This document shows, one piece after another, positions 8,393-16,409 of a stretch of 64,000 nt of DNA. The stretch's first letter is position 1. Every line of letters begins with the position of its first letter. The position numbers and the translations under genes are program-made. The notes below the pieces were generated by a model. The model was not told where the DNA came from. It searched no databases and saw nothing but the letters and a program-made list of their open reading frames with translations. Source of the DNA: Aliivibrio fischeri (GTDB lineage: Bacteria > Pseudomonadota > Gammaproteobacteria > Enterobacterales > Vibrionaceae); NCBI GenBank assembly GCA_038993745.2, contig CP160630.1:1355104-1419103 (forward strand), read 5' to 3'.

Positions 8393-8479
8393 TTAACGAT
8401 TTAAACGTTGATCAATCTCTACCGCCAGTGCTACTGATGCTCCAACCATTGGGTTATTCCCCATTCCAATAAAACCCAT
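8393..8479 (-). pseudogene. Detached 3' end of the GGGtGRT gene (last 28 codons)
   Basis: Read on the minus strand, this stretch encodes MGFIGMGNNPMVG followed by ASVALAVEIDQRLNR and a stop. As I recall it, this matches the conserved C-terminus of GGGtGRT-family proteins, in which an AHV-x-MMG segment continues into IGMGNNPMVGA. The 5' part of the gene lies 7 kb away (15503-16395). Removing the intervening 7,023-bp element and one copy of the CCCAT duplication joins them into one 975-bp reading frame (324 aa plus stop). The fragment has no start or promoter of its own and is not expected to be expressed. Confidence 0.88.
8475..8479. repeat. Target-site duplication, left copy (CCCAT)
   Basis: CCCAT directly precedes the element's TGTATAG terminus. 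The same five bases recur at 15503-15507 directly after the other terminus. A 5-bp duplication is the length made by Mu-type transposition. Confidence 0.85.
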
Positions 8480-8490
8480 TGTATAGACTC

Positions 8491-8510
8491 TATTATTATG
8501 AACAATTAAA
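8491..8510 (+). repeat. Candidate left-end transposase-binding site L1
   Basis: TTATGAACAATTAAA within this stretch resembles TTTTGAACAGTGAAA at the right end (minus strand, 15451-15471) and starts about 11 bases in from the left terminus. It is weaker than the two internal copies. Confidence 0.4.
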
Positions 8511-8649
8511 CAAGGTATAGGGATCTGGTGCACTTTATGCGGAATAAATGGGATCGCTTTACTGCTTAACCCTTATGTAATAAGGGATTGCGGTTTTTTT
8601 TGATTGATACAATGTATAGCAAAAAGACATAAATGAAGAAAAAACAAAA

Positions 8650-8714
8650 GCTAGGTAATTTGAGCAATAATATAAAAATGGCTTATTTAAGGCTAGTTAT
8701 TTGAGCAGTGATAG
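8650..8714 (+). repeat. Two direct repeats: candidate left-end transposase-binding sites
   Basis: GCTAGGTAATTTGAGCAATA (8650-8669) and GCTAGTTATTTGAGCAGTGA (8692-8711) are near-identical direct repeats starting 42 bp apart. The same motif, GCTAGAGTTTTGAACAGTGA, appears in inverted orientation at the other end of the element. Repeated motifs at both ends in inward orientation match the layout of MuA L and R sites. Confidence 0.65.
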
Positions 8715-9028
8715 TTTTAAAGTAAAAATGTTTAAACAGCATTTAAAAATATAGAAAACCCTTATAAATAGGGGTTTTATCACATATTCTTTAAGGGCAA
8801 AACAACGGAACAATAAATTTAATTAAAACAATTAGTTGTGTTTTTTTTAAATCAATATGATTTTAAAAAGAATTCAAATGATATTACTCGATTATTTTGA
8901 TATTTATCAGTTAGTTACGTAAAAATAATGAGTATCTACAATTTATCTTTTCAAATCAAAATCAATGGATGCTAACAAAAAAATAAATTTATTTTCACCT
9001 CATAATTTCCTTTCAATCAAAACACCTT

Positions 9029-9073
9029 AAAAGAAAGAGCTCCTTCCTTTAAAGAAACGAGCTTTCTTTTAAG
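9029..9073. terminator. Possible terminator hairpin
   Basis: AAAAGAAAGAGCTC pairs imperfectly with GAGCTTTCTTTT across a 16-base loop. No gene on either side obviously needs it, but it may insulate the promoter at 9196 from upstream transcription. Confidence 0.4.
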
Positions 9074-9195
9074 TTAAGTTGTTGATTTTAAAGTAATAAG
9101 CAGGATTAAATGGTGTGCCTACTCTGATTTTGAAAGAAAGAGTTTTTTTGATTTTAAATCTTATTTTTTGCTCAATACACTAGCTTAAAAAGTTC

Positions 9196-9224
9196 TTGAC
9201 GCTTTCATATTCCTTGTATATATT
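9196..9224 (+). promoter_or_regulatory. Sigma-70-type promoter for the C4-like RNA region
   Basis: TTGACG (9196-9201) and TATATT (9219-9224) are separated by 17 bases, close to the consensus. Transcription would start near 9231 and run into a hairpin region at 9283-9321, then the C4-like RNA and the gene at 9472. Confidence 0.65.
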
Positions 9225-9282
9225 TATTGAACGTTAGCAAAATCTAGCGTCAGGATTCGAACCCTGCTATATTACATCGGCG

Positions 9283-9321
9283 CACAAACACACGCCTATT
9301 TGCGTGTTTTTTTGTTTGTGT
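9283..9321 (+). terminator. Strong hairpin/terminator upstream of the C4-like RNA
   Basis: CACAAACACACG pairs with CGTG-T-run-GTTTGTG, with a seven-T run (9307-9313) inside the descending arm. It could end a transcript of about 80 bases from the promoter at 9196. That short RNA contains the first of three TTCGAACC motifs (9254-9261). Confidence 0.65.
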
Positions 9322-9340
9322 GATCTAGTCTTCATATTAT

Positions 9341-9417
9341 GGTGGACTGGGTGAGGCTAACTTCGGTTAGGCCGTTTCCTTTGTAGCGGTAGTTCGAACC
9401 TTATTCAGTTCGCCACC
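9341..9417 (+). ncRNA. C4-type phage antisense RNA
   Basis: The 77-base segment can fold into an outer stem (GGTGG 9341-9345 with CCACC 9413-9417) enclosing two hairpins. The first is GGCTAAC-TTCG-GTTAGGCC and the second is CCG...CGG with the loop TTTCCTTTGTAG. Size, fold and the GGGTGAGGCTAAC block match C4 antisense RNA of P1/P7 and related prophages, as I recall that family. TCCTTTGTA (9377-9385) is perfectly complementary to TACAAAGGA (9455-9463), which includes the ribosome-binding site of the gene starting at 9472. TTCGAA (9393-9398) can pair with TTCGAA at 9424-9429. Both are the a/b-type antisense contacts expected of C4, so it should repress that gene. Confidence 0.75.
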
Positions 9418-9471
9418 ATGAGATTCGAACCTTGTAGTGGTGATTTAAAAATCATACAAAGGATCTTAATC

Positions 9472-9864
9472 ATGGCTAATAATCTTCCAGTTAAACATTC
9501 TACTATCATCTCTGACACCAACCATAATCTAACATCGTCTTACGTTCCGTCTGCTGAACTAAAGTCTAACCTGCGTTCTGAGCTAGGTTGTATCCAAACT
9601 AAACTAGTTTCATTTATGAATTTATATCATAAGTGGGATAATGGTTTGATGAAATCTGATTGGACTGTTGTTAGCGAACTTGGCCTACGCGCCTCTGCTT
9701 TAGAAAATTCAATGAAGCGAATTCATAATAATTGCTCTAACGATCGCAAGAATCAAAATATAACTCAAAGCCTATCTATTGATGAAGAAAAAGAACTTAG
9801 TTCTTTAATGGATAAAGTATCTCCGTTAGAGTTATTGGCGATCCTTAAATCAAACATCCACTAA
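9472..9864 (+). CDS. Hypothetical phage protein under C4-type control
   Basis: A 130-aa protein of no recognised family. The start at 9472 follows an AAAGGA site at the right distance. The in-frame ATG at 9420 lies in the C4-like stem and would be read only as a leader. The product is polar and probably helical toward the C-terminus (SIDEEKELSSLMDKVSPLEL). In P1/P7 the C4-controlled genes are icd and ant (an antirepressor); by position this could be such an early regulator. That is inference only. The next small gene starts 12 bp downstream, suggesting an operon. Confidence 0.6.
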   Translation: MANNLPVKHSTIISDTNHNLTSSYVPSAELKSNLRSELGCIQTKLVSFMNLYHKWDNGLMKSDWTVVSELGLRASALENSMKRIHNNCSNDRKNQNITQSLSIDEEKELSSLMDKVSPLELLAILKSNIH

Positions 9865-9875
9865 GAGAGGTTAAG

Positions 9876-10016
9876 ATGAATAAAGATCGCTTAACCTCAA
9901 AAGAAAGCAAAGAACTATCTGCCATTGTTGGTAAACTTGGAGCTAGAAAGGCTCTTTATATCCTAAAAAACTGGTATAAGAATAATGAGAGGTTTTTAGA
10001 TAATCATGACAAATAA
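9876..10016 (+). CDS. Small hypothetical protein, 46 aa
   Basis: The ATG at 9876 is preceded by AGAGAGG (9864-9870). The frame runs to TAA at 10014 and overlaps the start of the next gene (10006) by 11 bases, typical of translational coupling. It begins MNKDRLTSKESKELSAIVGK and is basic. Its segment KELSAIVGKLGARKALYIL resembles the C-terminal motif KELSSLMDKVSPLELLAIL of the preceding protein, so the two may share ancestry. No known family. Confidence 0.55.
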   Translation: MNKDRLTSKESKELSAIVGKLGARKALYILKNWYKNNERFLDNHDK

Positions 10017-10365
10017 ACTAACAAACTTAACCCATAAAGATGTTGCTAAGAATAAAATCCGTAAAATATTATGCGATTTAACGCAAAGGCAAGCTCTTGA
10101 GGTTTACAATGAGTTATTAACAGAATTTGGGTTTCATAATGAGGATATGGAGAGCCTATATATTAGGTCTACTCATACATTAAGAACTAAACCTCACTTA
10201 TTGCCATTTATATTAAGTCTACCTCTAAACACTCTAACACAAACACGAGTTCTAGAGCTTTGTGATGAAAAGTTTGGTAAATCTGAATCTATTAGTCGTT
10301 CGTCATTATATAGAATGTGGTTTAAACTTATTTTAATGAAAACTCGTAAAGACTTGAATAATTAA
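10006..10365 (+). CDS. Hypothetical phage protein with helix-turn-helix-like C-terminus
   Basis: A 119-aa basic protein. The C-terminal region (FGKSESISRSSLYRMWFKL, about residues 90-108) looks like a helix-turn-helix recognition segment; the rest is unrecognised. It is translationally coupled to the 46-aa gene and closes the three-gene operon begun at 9472, since a terminator follows at 10418. It may be a regulator of the element. Confidence 0.55.
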   Translation: MTNKLTNLTHKDVAKNKIRKILCDLTQRQALEVYNELLTEFGFHNEDMESLYIRSTHTLRTKPHLLPFILSLPLNTLTQTRVLELCDEKFGKSESISRSSLYRMWFKLILMKTRKDLNN

Positions 10366-10417
10366 CTTTTCTTCTGTATGTTAATCATGAGCTTCAGACA
10401 TTAGTGCTGATTATATT

Positions 10418-10447
10418 GAAAGCCTCCTTTATTGGGGGCTTTTTTTT
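10418..10447 (+). terminator. Terminator after the first operon of the element
   Basis: AAAGCCTCC pairs with GGGGGCTTT around TTTATT, followed by a T-run. It separates the 9472-10365 genes from the Mor-like genes. Confidence 0.8.
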
Positions 10448-10552
10448 ATCTCCTTTTCATTTCTAGCCCCCCTACATTCATCAATCAAGGTTAATACAGT
10501 AACATCAATTAATGTATTACTATTAACTCATCGTTAACGACTTGGTTGGCTT

Positions 10553-11149
10553 ATGGGAAACAACACATTAAATAATAAATCTGAAATTTTATTACATCTA
10601 ATAAACTTTTTCTTTGATGGAAAAGTAAATTACGATTACATAAGTAATTTGAAAATAGATGGACGTAGATTTTATGCTATAGAAAACTGCCGAGTATATG
10701 TATTAGAAGAGTTTATTGTTAACGACTTTAAAAACGGTCACTCTTTGACTTGTTTAACAAATAAATATGAACGTAGTGAATCGTGCATAAGAAAAATTTT
10801 ATATAAATATGGCTATAATATTAAAAATGAAAAAATCAAATGCTCGAATGTAATTGATATTATTCATTTAGTTGATTTATTTAATCGTAAAGGTGAGGGA
10901 ATTAATTATTTTAATTTGATTCATAAACTTTCAAGTATTGTATGTGAAGAATCAAAACAAAAATACTTTTTAAATGGTGATGATTTTCTATGTGGAATTA
11001 AATACTTGTTTATTTGTGATGATGCCAAAAGTATGACAGCAAATGAAATTGCATTTAAATACGGTCATTCAGTTGTTCATATATATAGAATATTAAAAAG
11101 TAATAATACAGTTTCACAAATAAGAGAAAGAACCCCAAAACTTAATTAG
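10553..11149 (+). CDS. Divergent Mor-like regulator with two helix-turn-helix units
   Basis: A 198-aa protein. Two segments each align by eye with the C-terminal DNA-binding part of the Mor protein encoded next door. They are EEFIVNDFKNGHSLTCLTNK then YERSESCIRKIL (about residues 57-90), and MTANEIAFKYGHSVVHIYRI (about 160-180). The neighbour reads NGENAYELARKYKASHQHIY. It therefore looks like a tandem Mor-type protein, unusual because Mor/C proteins normally have one such unit and act as dimers. It is very AT-rich. Its stop is 11 bp before the Mor gene, so they are probably co-transcribed. Confidence 0.6.
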   Translation: MGNNTLNNKSEILLHLINFFFDGKVNYDYISNLKIDGRRFYAIENCRVYVLEEFIVNDFKNGHSLTCLTNKYERSESCIRKILYKYGYNIKNEKIKCSNVIDIIHLVDLFNRKGEGINYFNLIHKLSSIVCEESKQKYFLNGDDFLCGIKYLFICDDAKSMTANEIAFKYGHSVVHIYRILKSNNTVSQIRERTPKLN

Positions 11150-11159
11150 TGAGTTATTT

Positions 11160-11552
11160 ATGCGTAATATCAGTTGGATTGAATTATCAAAAAATAAAGA
11201 TGTGCATAACGCAGTTTTATCTAGACTAGAAAATGATAAAACATTATTAGGAGAAGTATTCTCAGCTTTAAGAAAAGAACTTAAAAATCAATTTTCAGAT
11301 TCAGAGATTATATCTGTATTTTGTTGTATATGTGATTACTTCGGCGGAGCACAAGTATACTTTCCATCAGGTCATTCATTAAAAAGCGCAGTATCAGGAT
11401 TTTTAATTTATAAAGAATTTAATGGTGAAAATGCTTATGAATTAGCAAGAAAGTACAAAGCATCTCACCAACATATATATAGACTTGTTGAAAAGCACAG
11501 GAACGCAGAGCGCGAAGCTAGAAAGCAAGTTGAGCAATTTAAATCATTATAA
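11160..11552 (+). CDS. Mor-family transcription activator
   Basis: A 130-aa protein of the Mu Mor/C family, which activates middle or late phage promoters. The N-terminal dimerisation part includes FCCICDYFGGAQVYFPSG (about residues 56-73), matching the Mor beta strand and its GGxQxYxPxG pattern. The C-terminal helix-turn-helix reads YELARKYKASHQHIYRLV (about 97-114). It stands between a Mor-like gene and the structural genes, as expected for a late-gene activator. Confidence 0.82.
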   Translation: MRNISWIELSKNKDVHNAVLSRLENDKTLLGEVFSALRKELKNQFSDSEIISVFCCICDYFGGAQVYFPSGHSLKSAVSGFLIYKEFNGENAYELARKYKASHQHIYRLVEKHRNAEREARKQVEQFKSL

Positions 11553-11563
11553 AAGGGCGTAAC

Positions 11564-11935
11564 GTGTACTCATATAAATTAATTGATGGTGTTGTTGTTC
11601 ATGGTGAATTAGTCACTGATTTTACTATCACCCCTTTAAGTGATGAACAAAAAACGGTTATTGATGAATTGGTAGAACGCCAACACGCAGTATTACTTCA
11701 ATCGAAAAAATTTGAAGCAGTAACAGAGCAACACGCACTAGCGGTTAAAGGTGTAATGACTCTAAACGAATACACATCGGCTTCTATTTCTTCTCTTGGT
11801 GATGAATCGGTAAATCTTAGCTTTGACGATCTCTGTGATTTAAAAGTGTCGGCTCAAGATTGGAATGTAATTCTAACGTCCTCTATGGCTTGTGACGAGT
11901 TTCATAATAGCTCTAGAGGTTCAATATATGTTTAA
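11564..11935 (+). CDS. Hypothetical phage protein, GTG start
   Basis: A 123-aa protein starting with GTG at 11564 behind an AAAAGGGCG site and 11 bp after the Mor gene. No recognised family. It is mostly acidic and polar with no membrane segment. Its C-terminus (SACDEFHNSSRGS-like region) looks abrupt, so it might be a remnant fused out of frame at a deletion point. A 53-bp gap separates it from the protease gene. Confidence 0.5.
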   Translation: MYSYKLIDGVVVHGELVTDFTITPLSDEQKTVIDELVERQHAVLLQSKKFEAVTEQHALAVKGVMTLNEYTSASISSLGDESVNLSFDDLCDLKVSAQDWNVILTSSMACDEFHNSSRGSIYV

Positions 11936-11988
11936 ACGCTAACAGCGCGATTTAAACGTGGTTTAAACATGGTTACAGGTACTATCAA

Positions 11989-12819
11989 ATGTTATTTAAA
12001 GCAATATGCAAAGATTTAAGTGGTAACGCCCCTGAATGGGTGCAAATTCTTCCTAGTGGACCTGATATTCAAGGGCTTGATGGTCGTAGTTGGAAATCGA
12101 AGTCACCAGAAGCATTAGTACATGCTTTTAATAAGCTTAAAATGCCGATGGTTGTCGATTATGAACATGGACAAGAACTAAAAGCTCCAAATGGTGAAGA
12201 AGCTCCTGCGGCTGGGTGGATTGAAGAGCTAGAAGTTCGTAACGGTGAGTTATGGGCGCGTGTGGATTGGACTGAACGAGCTAAAACAGCAATTAATGCT
12301 CGTGAGTATCGATTCTTATCTCCTGCGTTCTCTTATAACGACCAAAGAGAAATAATGAGTTTTTCAAGTGTCGGTTTAACTAATAAGCCTAATTTAGTAA
12401 TGCAAGCATTAAATAGCCGTCAATCCAATGCAGTAGACGCAACGGATTGGTCTGCGGTATCTAAAGCGTTAGGTACAACAGTATCAGACCAAAATGGATT
12501 ACTTGCTGCTCTGAATAATAAAGATGAAGCTAAATCAACAAAAGAAGCGGAAACGATTGTTGATAGCTTTATTGAAAAAGCAGTATTTGCGCCCTCTCAA
12601 CGTGATTTCTTAATTGCCACTTGTCGCACGCAAGGTATAGAGCAATTTACCGCGTTCGCAAGTGCTAACACTGGCTTTTCTTATTTAAATGATGGCTTGT
12701 CCATTCCAAATAAAGCCATAAATAAAAAATCTAATCTTGATGATACTCAACTTGCAGTATGTCGCAGTGTCGGCGTAACAGAAGAGCAATTCATTAACGT
12801 AATTAATAAAGAGAAATAA
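11989..12819 (+). CDS. Mu gpI-like prohead protease/scaffold
   Basis: A 276-aa protein matching the Mu gene I product, whose full form is the prohead protease and whose internal product (Z) is the scaffold. Visible segments are WVQILPSGPDIQGLDGRSW (residues 17-35), MVVDYEHGQE (about 56-65), a putative protease core AAGWIEELEVRNGELWARVD (about 75-94), and EYRFLSPAFSY (about 105-115). Mu gpI is about 361 aa, so this is somewhat short in the scaffold part. It directly precedes the capsid gene, as in Mu. Confidence 0.82.
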   Translation: MLFKAICKDLSGNAPEWVQILPSGPDIQGLDGRSWKSKSPEALVHAFNKLKMPMVVDYEHGQELKAPNGEEAPAAGWIEELEVRNGELWARVDWTERAKTAINAREYRFLSPAFSYNDQREIMSFSSVGLTNKPNLVMQALNSRQSNAVDATDWSAVSKALGTTVSDQNGLLAALNNKDEAKSTKEAETIVDSFIEKAVFAPSQRDFLIATCRTQGIEQFTAFASANTGFSYLNDGLSIPNKAINKKSNLDDTQLAVCRSVGVTEEQFINVINKEK

Positions 12820-12822
12820 ATT

Positions 12823-13724
12823 ATGCCTACACCAGTTGATATTAATAACATCGTAATTCAATCAAGCTCTGCTTTTGCTGCTCGTTTTGGTCAAGGTATG
12901 GAGCATGCAAATCCTGATTACCTTAAAGTAGCTACCGTTCTACCATCTTCATCAGGCGCAACGGGTTACGGTTGGCTAGGTGACTTTCCAAACTTAAAAG
13001 AATGGATTGGAGCTCGACAATTAAAAGATCTTAAAAAGCATCAATACAATATTGTTAATAAAACCTTTGAATCATCCGTTAAGGTTGCACGTGTTGATTA
13101 CGAAGATAATGACTACGGACGTTATGGAATTATTTTCGAGCAAATGGGGCATGATGCAAAACTATATCCAGATGATCATGTATTTGGTTTATTAAAAGAT
13201 GGCTTTACAGAAGTTTGTTATGATGGACAACCATTCTTTGATGCTGACCATCCGTCTGAGATTGCAGGACAACCAACATTATCGAATATTGATGTCCCTG
13301 CTACTGACCCATCAACAGCATGGTATTTATTAGATACAAGTCGCCCTATTAAACCGCTTATTTGGCAAGAGCGCGTTAAACCAGAATTTGCGTCTTTAAC
13401 TGATAATAATGATGCGCATGTATTTATTAATGATGATTATTTATTTGGTACTCGCGCTCGCGGTAATTCTGGATTTTCTTTTGGCAATTGGCGTTTGCAT
13501 CAAAACAAGCATTAACAGAAGCAAATTTTGAATCTTTATTAACTAAAATGATGGAGCAAAAGAATAGCGAAGGTAAATCTTTAAAAATTAAACCTACGCT
13601 ATTAGTTGTCCCTGTATCTCTTCGTTCTGCTGCCGAACGTATTATTTTACGTAAGCAATTAGAAAACGGAGAAGATAATACAAATTATAAAGCGGTTGAG
13701 ATTCTAGTCTCTCAAGACCTTTAA
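12823..13724 (+). pseudogene. Mu gpT-like major capsid protein, apparent frameshift
   Basis: It encodes a Mu gpT-type major head subunit (Mu T is about 305 aa). The first frame (12823-13515) starts MPTPVDINNIVIQSSSAFAA and ends off-track at RLHQNKH. The second frame resumes at about 13488 with LAFASKQALTEANFE and TLLVVPVSLRSAAERIIL, which is the conserved gpT C-terminus. Inserting one base near GGCAATTGG (about 13484; for example GGCCAATTGG) restores a 300-aa protein. This is either a true lesion in a dead phage gene or one of the single-base errors seen across this window. Confidence 0.8.
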
Positions 13725-13734
13725 TTAAATAACG

Positions 13735-13766
13735 AAAAAGGCTAATTATTATATTAGCCTTTTTTA
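13735..13766. terminator. Terminator between capsid and tape-measure genes
   Basis: AAAAAGGCTAAT pairs with ATTAGCCTTTTT, A-run and T-run on both sides. Mu has several genes between T and the tape measure; the terminator followed at once by the tape-measure gene marks a deletion or reorganisation. Confidence 0.85.
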
Positions 13767-13779
13767 TTGGTGGTTATAT

Positions 13780-15444
13780 ATGGCTAATAAATTAGAAACT
13801 GAAATTATTCTTAATTTAAAAGGGAATCTTTCAGAAAAAGCGAAAAGCTATGGTGCTTCCATGAGTAAATTTGCACGAGATAATGAACGTGCAATGTCAA
13901 TGGTACAAACAACAACAGCGGCAGCGTCAAAAGGTATTGATACGTTAGGTAATCGAAGTTTAATAGCAACAGGGGCAATAGGCGTTGCTTTTCATCAGAC
14001 GTTTGTAAAAACAGCGGCAGAATTTGAAAAGTATCAAATAATGCTTAATAACTTGCAAGGCTCACCAGAAGGAGGAGCTGCCGCAATGGATTGGATTGAA
14101 GAATTTACCCAATCAACGCCCTTTGCAGTTAATGAAGTGACAGAAGCCTTTGTTAAATTAAAAGCGTTTGGGTTAGATCCTATGGATGGTTCAATGCAGT
14201 CCATTGTTGATCAAGCTGCAAAAATGGGAGGTACTGCGGAATCGGTCGAAGGGATAGCTCTTGCTTTAGGTCAAGCATGGACAAAAGGAAAGTTACAAGG
14301 TGAAGAAGCATTGCAGCTCTTAGAACGTGGCGTTCCTGTTTGGGATTACTTAATTGAAGCAAGTAAAGAGCTTGGACATAATAATGGTCTTGGTTATACC
14401 GCTGCTCAATTACAAGATATGGCCTCTAAAGGCGAATTAACAAAGGATGCGATAACGTCTCTTATTACAGTTATGGGACGCGCTTCAAGTGGGTCAGCTA
14501 AAGCGCAAATGGACTCATGGAGTGGTATGTTATCTAATATGGGCGATCATTGGGATTTCTTCCAAAAAGATATTATGGATAGCGGAGCTTTCCAAGTTCT
14601 TAAAGATGAGCTGGGAGATTTACTAGATACTCTCGATAAAATGAAAGAAACAGGCGAATACGATAAGCTTGTTGAAACTGTAGGACAAAATCTTGTTGAT
14701 GGTTTTAAAGCGGCAGCATCCGCAGCTACAACGTTAAAAGAGGTTGGCAAAGAGTTTTTACCCGTTCTTAGAGCGATAGGAAAAGGTGCATCATCAATTA
14801 GCGAAGCTGTAGGAGGGTATGAGAATTTAGCTAAAATTCTTGTTTCCGTATACGCTCTAAATAAAGCCATTCGTGTAGGAACGCCTTTAATGCAAGGTGC
14901 GATCTCTGCGGGGAAATGGGCTCTTGGTCGTGGCTCTAAAGCGGACGGTAAAGGCGGAATGCAAGACCTCGGAGCAACCCCTGTTTTTGTTGTTAACATG
15001 CCAGCAAGCGGATTAGGTGGTTCAATATGTAGCGCATCAACTACAAGCGCATCAACAAAAACAAGTAAAGCGGTAAAAGCCCTTGACGTTCTAGGTAAAG
15101 GTTTAATTGTTGGTGAGGTTATGGATGCCTTGTTCGGTGATACTGAGTGGGCCCAGAAAGCTAAAAATACAACATTATCCGATGTATTTCCTAGTGTGTT
15201 TGATAATCAATCAAAGCCAAAACAAATAGCTCAACCATCAACGCAAGAAATACTTAAAGCCGTTAATATGGAAATAAATGCACGCTCTCAAGGTGGTGCT
15301 ATGGGGTCAATGTGGGATAACTTTCCTATTCCTAATCAAGGACAATCAAGCCTTAAAATTGAAGTATCAGATGATCGTGTTCGCGTTACAAATGTAAATT
15401 CATCACCACATTTAAATATTGATTATGATAACGGCCGTAATTAA
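13780..15444 (+). CDS. Phage tail tape-measure protein (short)
   Basis: A 554-aa protein with a tape-measure domain (about residues 70-280): AEFEKYQIMLNNLQGSPEGG, EFTQSTPFAVNEVTEAFVKL, GEEALQLLERGVPVWDYL and SGMLSNMGDHWDFF are characteristic. In a virion it would set tail length and act inside the tail tube. The C-terminal part is Lys/Ser/Gly-rich and ends six bases before the right-end binding repeat of the element. No tail tube, chaperone or DNA circularisation genes accompany it. It is the last gene of the Mu-like element. Confidence 0.82.
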   Translation: MANKLETEIILNLKGNLSEKAKSYGASMSKFARDNERAMSMVQTTTAAASKGIDTLGNRSLIATGAIGVAFHQTFVKTAAEFEKYQIMLNNLQGSPEGGAAAMDWIEEFTQSTPFAVNEVTEAFVKLKAFGLDPMDGSMQSIVDQAAKMGGTAESVEGIALALGQAWTKGKLQGEEALQLLERGVPVWDYLIEASKELGHNNGLGYTAAQLQDMASKGELTKDAITSLITVMGRASSGSAKAQMDSWSGMLSNMGDHWDFFQKDIMDSGAFQVLKDELGDLLDTLDKMKETGEYDKLVETVGQNLVDGFKAAASAATTLKEVGKEFLPVLRAIGKGASSISEAVGGYENLAKILVSVYALNKAIRVGTPLMQGAISAGKWALGRGSKADGKGGMQDLGATPVFVVNMPASGLGGSICSASTTSASTKTSKAVKALDVLGKGLIVGEVMDALFGDTEWAQKAKNTTLSDVFPSVFDNQSKPKQIAQPSTQEILKAVNMEINARSQGGAMGSMWDNFPIPNQGQSSLKIEVSDDRVRVTNVNSSPHLNIDYDNGRN

Positions 15445-15450
15445 TCATTT

Positions 15451-15471
15451 TTCACTGTTCAAAACTCTAGC
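15451..15471 (-). repeat. Candidate right-end transposase-binding site
   Basis: On the minus strand this reads GCTAGAGTTTTGAACAGTGA, closely matching the two left-end repeats (8650 and 8692). It points inward from the right terminus, 31 bases inside the end. Between it and the terminus is a GC-rich inverted repeat (GCGCAAAATGCGC, 15480-15492), similar in character to the GC-rich right tip of Mu. Confidence 0.65.
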
Positions 15472-15502
15472 AAACGATGCGCAAAATGCGCGCGGCTGCA
15501 CA

Positions 15503-15507
15503 CCCAT
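15503..15507. repeat. Target-site duplication, right copy (CCCAT)
   Basis: Matches 8475-8479. Both copies derive from codons of the GGGtGRT gene (…ATG ATG GGT… on the minus strand), which makes the insertion point exact. Confidence 0.85.
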
Positions 15508-16409
15508 CATCGCAACATGTGCAGGTACAGATGAACTTCCAGCAAATTGTGCATCTGCATGCATTCTTCCCATGGTATCTGTCATACCGTAAGATGCAGG
15601 ACCAGCTGCCACATTATCAGGGTGTAAAGTTCGTCCTGTACCACCACCAGAGGCCACAGAGAAGTACGGTTTTCCTTGAGATAAACGTTCTTGTTTATAA
15701 ATGCCAGCAACAGGGTGCTGAAAACGTGTAGGGTTCGTTGAATTCCCCGTAATACTCACATCAACATTTGCAGCATGCATAATTGCGGTGCCTTCACGAA
15801 CATCATCCGCACCATAACATAAAATATCCCCACGCTCTGTTTGCGAAAAACGCTTTCTACTGACTTCAACCAATTCACCGGTTTGGTAATTAAATTCTGT
15901 TCTTACATAAGTAAAACCATTAATACGCGAGATAAGATAAGCGGCATCTTTACCTAAGCCATTTAATACCACTCTTAATGGTGTTTGACGTGATTTATTT
16001 GCATTTAATGCAATTTTAATCGCTCCTTCAGCAGCAGCAAAAGACTCATGACCAGCTAAAAATGCAAAACATTGAGTTTCTTCCGATAATAAGCGAGCTG
16101 CTAATGCACCATGACCAAGCCCAACTTGACGCTGCTCTGCCACGCTCCCTTTTTTACAAAATGCTTGTAGCCCCTCACCTATCATTGTTGCTGCCGTTAC
16201 CGCACTATCCGCTTTTCTAAATAGTGCTAAAGCAGAGCCTAAAGTATAAGCATCACACGCATTATCAAAGGCAATCGGCTGAGTATCTAATACCAATTTT
16301 TTAGGATCGATCCCAGCTTCAAGGCAATAATCATATGCTTGATCAAGTGTTGAGAAATTCATTTCTTCAAGTAATGTTTGGATATTTGTATTCATAATGA
16401 TGGCCTCAA

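Follow-up and report, generated by a model that had tools for sequence, protein, structure and literature searches.

The window analyzed here, a 64,000-nucleotide stretch of Aliivibrio fischeri DNA (contig CP160630.1, positions 1,355,104 to 1,419,103), contains a GGGtGRT gene that is split in two by a 7,023-bp insert, hereafter the element. The gene parts, the element and the junctions lie as follows.

8393..8479, minus strand: 3′ fragment of the GGGtGRT gene, by comparison of the join
8475..8479, strand not assigned: left copy of the target-site duplication CCCAT, by comparison of the join
8480..15502, plus strand: whole element, by the empty site in five relatives and by comparison of its ends with resident prophages and other copies
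15503..15507, strand not assigned: right copy of the target-site duplication CCCAT, by comparison of the join
15503..16395, minus strand: 5′ part of the GGGtGRT gene (PF14057, 512.7 bits)

An earlier note on this DNA had placed the two parts of the gene at 16395-15503 and 8479-8393 on the minus strand around the 7,023-bp insert, and these coordinates are correct. CCCAT stands at both junctions, as the note had said, and is a 5-bp target-site duplication. Its arithmetic was also reproduced, as the flanks joined through one CCCAT give 975 bp (324 amino acids (aa) plus stop) and read AHVAMMG-FIGMGNNPMVG. A DNA search of 14 genomes of the genus, including the genome under study, found the gene in 6, and in all five others the predicted join is uninterrupted. 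Of these relatives G002 is the closest, with 763 identical positions out of 805, and two of the five loci were compared after turning their orientation. The gene matched once in its own genome, so that no intact second copy, by which the fragments could have been explained otherwise, was seen at the sensitivity of that search. The element is thus bounded exactly at 8480-15502 with termini TGT...ACA, and the 5′ open frame of the gene now extends into it to 15445 (316 aa). Calling it a Mu-like element, the note was right about insertion, 5-bp duplication and Mu-like nature, but the label is incomplete, as the insert is not a complete Mu prophage, nor one that decayed at random. Three things had been missed: MuA, MuB, large terminase and portal have no homologue inside, C4 and isrK RNAs are present, and the same reduced gene set recurs at the same size in other genera.

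The following features were assigned within the element.

8480..8539, plus strand: left end, resembling the left end of resident Mu-like prophages (51/61 columns to prophage A, 37/62 to the prophage of genome G312)
9231..9312, plus strand: isrK RNA (RF01394; 60.6 bits, gathering threshold 50)
9335..9420, plus strand: C4 antisense RNA (RF01695; 70.3 bits, gathering threshold 45)
9455..9463, plus strand: predicted C4 target covering the ribosome-binding site of the gene that follows (9-nucleotide complementarity, co-variation with C4)
9472..9864, plus strand: first gene after C4, 130 aa, phrog_16494 (profile match, with a query started one codon downstream)
9876..10016, plus strand: 46-aa protein resembling the N-terminus of a small-terminase-like protein found in other elements (phrog_16430, E 0.0017; tblastn matches in L093 and L184)
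10006..10365, plus strand: 119-aa protein, phrog_16319 (profile match)
10553..11149, plus strand: 198-aa regulator with weak similarity to Mor (24.3 bits, below the cut-off of 24.9)
11160..11552, plus strand: Mor/C-family late transcription activator (PF08765, 69.4 bits)
11564..11935, plus strand: g6, 123-aa protein with a predicted tail-assembly-chaperone fold
11989..12819, plus strand: gpI, head protease/scaffold, 276 aa, without one scaffold segment (PF10123, 168.8 bits; alignment; tree)
12823..13724, plus strand: gpT, major head protein, frame broken here (open reading frames 12823-13515 and 13488-13724; PF10124; phrog_371 in two pieces)
13780..15444, plus strand: full-length tape measure protein, 554 aa (aligned to Vibrio phage 1.028.O)
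15443..15502, minus strand: right end, Mu-type, no closer to a resident prophage than to another (end comparison)

The tape measure aligns with that of Vibrio phage 1.028.O over residues 1-554 (56.6% identity), and this full-length match rules out a truncation at its end, which had been assumed from the PHROG match. The 119-aa protein was considered as a small terminase, and it has no PF11985 match to support this. No integrase occurs among the family matches of the element's proteins. For g6, the predicted fold is similar to tail-assembly chaperones, the profile comparison gives a probability of 20%, and the gene is not adjacent to that of the tape measure. Relatives of g6 (P0243, P0245 and P0246) are named 6-phospho-beta-glucosidase in NCBI, most likely wrongly. 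In the element's left part, positions 9015-9087 of the window hold an inverted repeat. A portion of this repeat is matched in G009:C25, where a similar left end lies nearby, and its hairpin at 9027-9080 was folded with z of -1.87.

Elsewhere in the same genome are two complete Mu-like prophages, A and B (contig C2, 993844-1026974 and 1044850-1077407; duplications TTCAC and ATCGC), whose left ends resemble the element's at 75% over 116 bp. The two are closely alike (aligned blocks 92.7-99.9% identical), and in each a type II hammerhead ribozyme lies some 7.6-8 kb inward of the left end; Vibrio phage 1.028.O has one too. Gene content was compared by tblastn using the 26 prophage A proteins of at least 150 aa, named by gene order, against nine elements examined end to end: the present one and, at other loci (L) described below, L183, L184, L185, L186, L187 (at the same place as L030), L093, L094 and L188. 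Only gpI, gpT and the tape measure have homologues in all nine, and the small terminase in five. The other 22 proteins, including MuA, MuB, the large terminase and the portal, have no tblastn match in any of the nine. The element therefore falls short of an autonomous Mu-like phage both in MuA and MuB and in a complete operon for head, packaging and tail.

A protein search with gpI matched 389 proteins, and group counts rest on the best 120 of these. The first 38 of the 120 are mostly 270-279 aa long with at least 42% identity, and the remainder are mostly longer than 300 aa. An alignment of 33 of the 38 group members was used as query for genomes and contigs, viral contigs included. Among 329 genomes of the family it matched 7 at 1e-50 (4 of these at 1e-118 or better), among 394 genomes of the order it matched 2, and among 84,980 species genomes it found 63 loci, one of them close (Aeromonas sobria). 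Plasmid records gave one close gpI match, on a Klebsiella pneumoniae plasmid. Searched against phage records, gpI of this Klebsiella branch matched 23, all below 60% identity and with 33% for the best covering match; the DNA of the Klebsiella element was not found in E. coli genomes at megablast sensitivity.

In all nine elements a Mor-type regulator is followed by one further gene and then by gpI, gpT and the tape measure, and this architecture of 6.7-7.6 kb recurs in Vibrionaceae, Aeromonas and Klebsiella. The reading frame is single for gpI in 7, for gpT in 8 and for the tape measure in 6 of the nine. L095 is partial at a contig end, and L096, L110 and L123 stand outside the set. L094 is a public IMG/VR contig of 6,691 bp, seemingly one element from end to end. 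Contigs of 6.2-7.4 kb hold 10 of the 38 gpI clusters of this group and 6 of the 82 others among the best 120 matches (P 0.008, computed after the lengths had been seen). The left-end pattern had no match in viral contigs; g1 and g6 had no relatives there, and g1 had no match in phage records.

Here 'satellite' denotes the group to which the element belongs, on grounds that follow. A gpI tree of the 38 group members and six locus sequences, with every second one of the other 82 and three prophage sequences, is split by one branch (100/100) into 44 satellite-type and 44 phage rows, the satellite label of most rows resting on the clade and the architecture having been checked only in the loci examined end to end. 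Bit scores of gpI are 241-554 among satellites and 125-165 to phages. An internal block of about 36 residues or more is missing from gpI in all five aligned satellites and present in all three phages. For gpT, 24 satellite and 54 phage rows are split at 97/79, and the Vibrio/Shewanella/Aeromonas branch alone at 98/99. A clean gpT grouping of both satellite branches had been read from bit scores, but these are equivocal (for L187, 267 with prophage A and 251 with L094), and the tree support of 97/79 is not full. In the pair L183-L184, the ratio of nonsynonymous to synonymous substitution (dN/dS) is about 0.09 for both gpI and gpT, which indicates purifying selection on these genes in the pair measured.

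Tape measures behave differently from head genes. The element's own reaches 574 bits with the Vibrio phage but no more than 113 with any other satellite. For the tape measure of L093 the scores are 490-576 with prophages A, B and H312 (the resident prophage of G312) and 372 at most with satellites; those of L183, L184 and L187 are more alike to one another. As far as these comparisons reach, the head genes are lineages of the satellites' own, and tape measures are exchanged with phages.

The elements could have arisen as decayed Mu-like prophages, in which separate deletions chanced to leave gpI, gpT and the tape measure between intact ends, and the frameshift in the element's gpT is what decay would produce, as are the broken genes in the two G312 copies and in L184. 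However, gene set, order and size are alike in nine elements of several genera, and the single gpI lineage (100/100) already contradicts separate origins. The low dN/dS, the gpI segment missing in common and the co-variation of C4 with its target (see below) also speak against it, as does an intact gpT like the element's own: P0130, of 300 aa, occurs on 17 contigs of the protein collection and is 98.7% and 100% identical to the two pieces. On tree, selection and recurrence, random decay was set aside, and we give it hardly any credence.

All seven insertions bounded by TG...CA have TGT...ACA termini and an exact 5-bp duplication (CCCAT, CTCGG, ATGTC, TGCGT, ATAGC, TCCTG and ACCGA), at sizes of 7,023-7,551 bp. 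The boundaries of the present element come from the empty site, and those of L185 and L186 from comparing these two copies, which are 99.86% identical and lie on different replicons of one genome (G312) with duplications TGCGT and ATAGC. L093 (6308-15398) interrupts the transposase gene of a Mu-like prophage, with MuA residues 7-548 and 545-669 on either side, and its bounds are confirmed because the halves of the MuA target flank it. One copy lies inside a plasmid between traD and traX. L188 and L197, with 99.985% identity across 6,815 bp, have different surroundings. L197:1400-8900, near-identical to the Klebsiella plasmid element, is within sequence common to unrelated Klebsiella phages (methyltransferase/exonuclease region). 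The insertion targets are unrelated and include a Mu-like prophage's own transposase gene.

That last insertion would also suit an anti-phage defence island, whose capsid, protease/scaffold and tape measure mainly poison Mu-like particles and which spreads only occasionally. Such an island could well carry just the subunits that nucleate head and tail, and assembly interference is described as a defence in PMC11364771. On the other hand, the transposon ends are intact, one genome holds two recent copies, and near-identical copies sit at different sites, which shows spread to be under selection or, at the least, still going on. Interference is also common among satellites, so the two readings overlap; as the main function of the element we consider defence improbable.

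isrK and C4 RNAs score above Rfam thresholds in 9 of 11 distinct loci scanned, with the partial L095 counted. C4 of the element has both marks of a C4 RNA, the fold defined in Rfam and complementarity with a ribosome-binding site downstream of it: two segments of it are complementary to the sequence just after C4 and to the ribosome-binding site of the next gene. The pairing was compared in six elements, leaving out L185 as a near-duplicate and not including L095. Taken together, own pairs of C4 and target match better than swapped ones, the sum of own pairings being reached by 0.3% and 0.6% of 720 permutations. Within single elements the significance is modest (2% to 33% of shuffles; 2% for the 9-nucleotide match of the present element).

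As to possible helpers, the left 60 bp of the element match prophage A at 51/61 and H312 at 37/62, and those of L185 match the resident H312 at 48/61 and A at 38/63; the left end or its neighbourhood matches a resident Mu-like prophage in two of three genomes tested. H312 and its satellite also share DNA of about 80% identity at both ends of the tape measure gene. PF11985 (Mu gp27 small terminase) is matched in L184 (35.2 bits over the first 48 of 173 positions), and L093 (21.9) and L188 (22.3) score below its cut-off of 28. In the Klebsiella branch, a 137-aa protein at the place of g6 was tried as its counterpart and matches neither g6 nor chaperones.

These elements have Mu-type ends and lie at unrelated sites within short duplications; their reduced gene set recurs, and their gpI and gpT form lineages of their own. 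We conclude with high confidence that the element belongs to a family of satellites that are not autonomous and depend on Mu-like (transposable) phages. Several observations weigh against this conclusion. Genes are broken in the element (gpT), in both G312 copies L185 and L186 (gpI and tape measure) and in L184 (tape measure), and the Rfam scan found neither isrK nor C4 in L188 and L096. Right ends show no preference for the resident prophage, and a transposase-bearing prophage region of G164 has no DNA match with its satellite L184, which contradicts a simple rule of resident helpers. The PF02914 transposase was found in three of five satellite genomes and not in the other two. The ends of L183, L184, L187 and L093 were chosen among several candidates by the 5-bp repeat and the best left end. 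The Klebsiella copies L188 and L197 have 4-bp repeats (CGTG and TCCA) instead of 5-bp ones and a left terminus of TATAG. Intact satellite tape measures (554-625 aa) are as long as those of phages (522-599 aa); therefore shorter tails are not predicted, and the idea of a tape measure shortened for short tails was dropped. Finally, movement, packaging and small heads are deduced here from sequence.

We conceived the following course for the family, which would extend over at least Vibrionaceae, Shewanella, Aeromonas and Enterobacteriaceae. A Mu-like helper, infecting or induced, would supply MuA and MuB, which would act in trans on the satellite ends, and the satellite would replicate by helper-driven transposition of the Mu type instead of using an integrase. 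The helper would also give terminase, portal, tube, sheath, baseplate and lysis. The satellite would capture helper particles by giving the nucleating parts of head (capsid protein and protease/scaffold) and tail (tape measure), to which the Vibrio/Shewanella/Aeromonas branch may add its probable tape-measure chaperone. The scaffold without one segment may yield a smaller head, and the putative small-terminase DNA-binding domain that some elements carry without a partner may bias packaging towards the satellite. At rest, the element would be kept quiet by C4 RNA paired to the first gene's ribosome-binding site, and Mor-like proteins would turn on the late genes. The element's own tape measure perhaps serves entry or exclusion at the inner membrane. 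We think this course as a whole probable, if less so than the satellite nature itself. Within it, we strongly infer mobilisation in trans by MuA, while packaging in helper particles is likely and a smaller head plausible.

A different outcome would be that of a natural mini-Mu, for which the helper would provide both movement and packaging, the latter in full-size heads that also take in host DNA, particle size being unchanged by the element's own gpI, gpT and tape measure. In laboratory mini-Mu, Mu ends suffice for mobility driven in trans by a helper, and Mu replication is expected to proceed without concatemers; the tape measure is also as long as a phage's. But full-size heads leave unexplained why a diverged and selected capsid and scaffold, with a segment missing in common, are kept. 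This alternative, which we find possible but rather doubtful, is compatible with a satellite of Mu-like phages and opposes the small-head step only.

If the proposal is true, a satellite of transposable phages would add a different mode of multiplication, and would explain gene disruptions such as the GGGtGRT split. It would also be a natural experiment on the minimum of a phage that suffices to capture its particle. Through the scaffold segment missing in common, head-size control in Mu-like phages becomes open to direct testing, and tape measures exchanged with phages raise the question of what a satellite gains from its own. No description of a satellite of Mu-like phages was found in the openly licensed PubMed Central (PMC) literature searched, and the review passages available there contain no match for phage Mu or Mu-like.

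The nearest known systems are the Mu-like phages themselves (Vibrio phage 1.028.O, MG592412, and the resident A and B), which share the TG...CA ends, the 5-bp duplications and the gene order Mor, gpI, gpT, tape measure. They are 32-33 kb long, whereas the satellite is 7 kb and without MuA, MuB, large terminase and portal, and it has C4 and isrK RNAs instead of the hammerhead ribozyme of the phages compared. Laboratory mini-Mu likewise has Mu ends and moves in trans by a helper, as the satellite would; unlike it, the satellite is natural, conserved across genera, and equipped with its own capsid, scaffold, tape measure and RNA control.

The C4 RNA of P1 and P7, which according to a passage of PMC12197685 blocks translation around a ribosome-binding site, has the same fold and a comparable pairing to that predicted here, but the gene under control here would be another one, phrog_16494. 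Being recurrent, compact and without genes for whole particles, the elements answer to the general notion of a satellite. Those of the P4-like, PICI, PLE and PICMI types are also small, phage-related and dependent on helpers, as the present family would be. All known satellites, as a passage of PMC10803314 puts it, have in common integration at specific sites with a satellite integrase; the present family instead lies at unrelated sites reached by transposition, and the matches of this element's proteins include no integrase. Capsid-forming PICIs (cf-PICIs) resemble it in encoding a capsid protein and a head protease. According to PMC10690885, their genes further include those for portal, connectors and terminases, so that tails are all they need from elsewhere. 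The present elements do not belong to the cf-PICIs, having no portal or large terminase homologue, no integrase found, and variable sites, and carrying a tape measure of their own.

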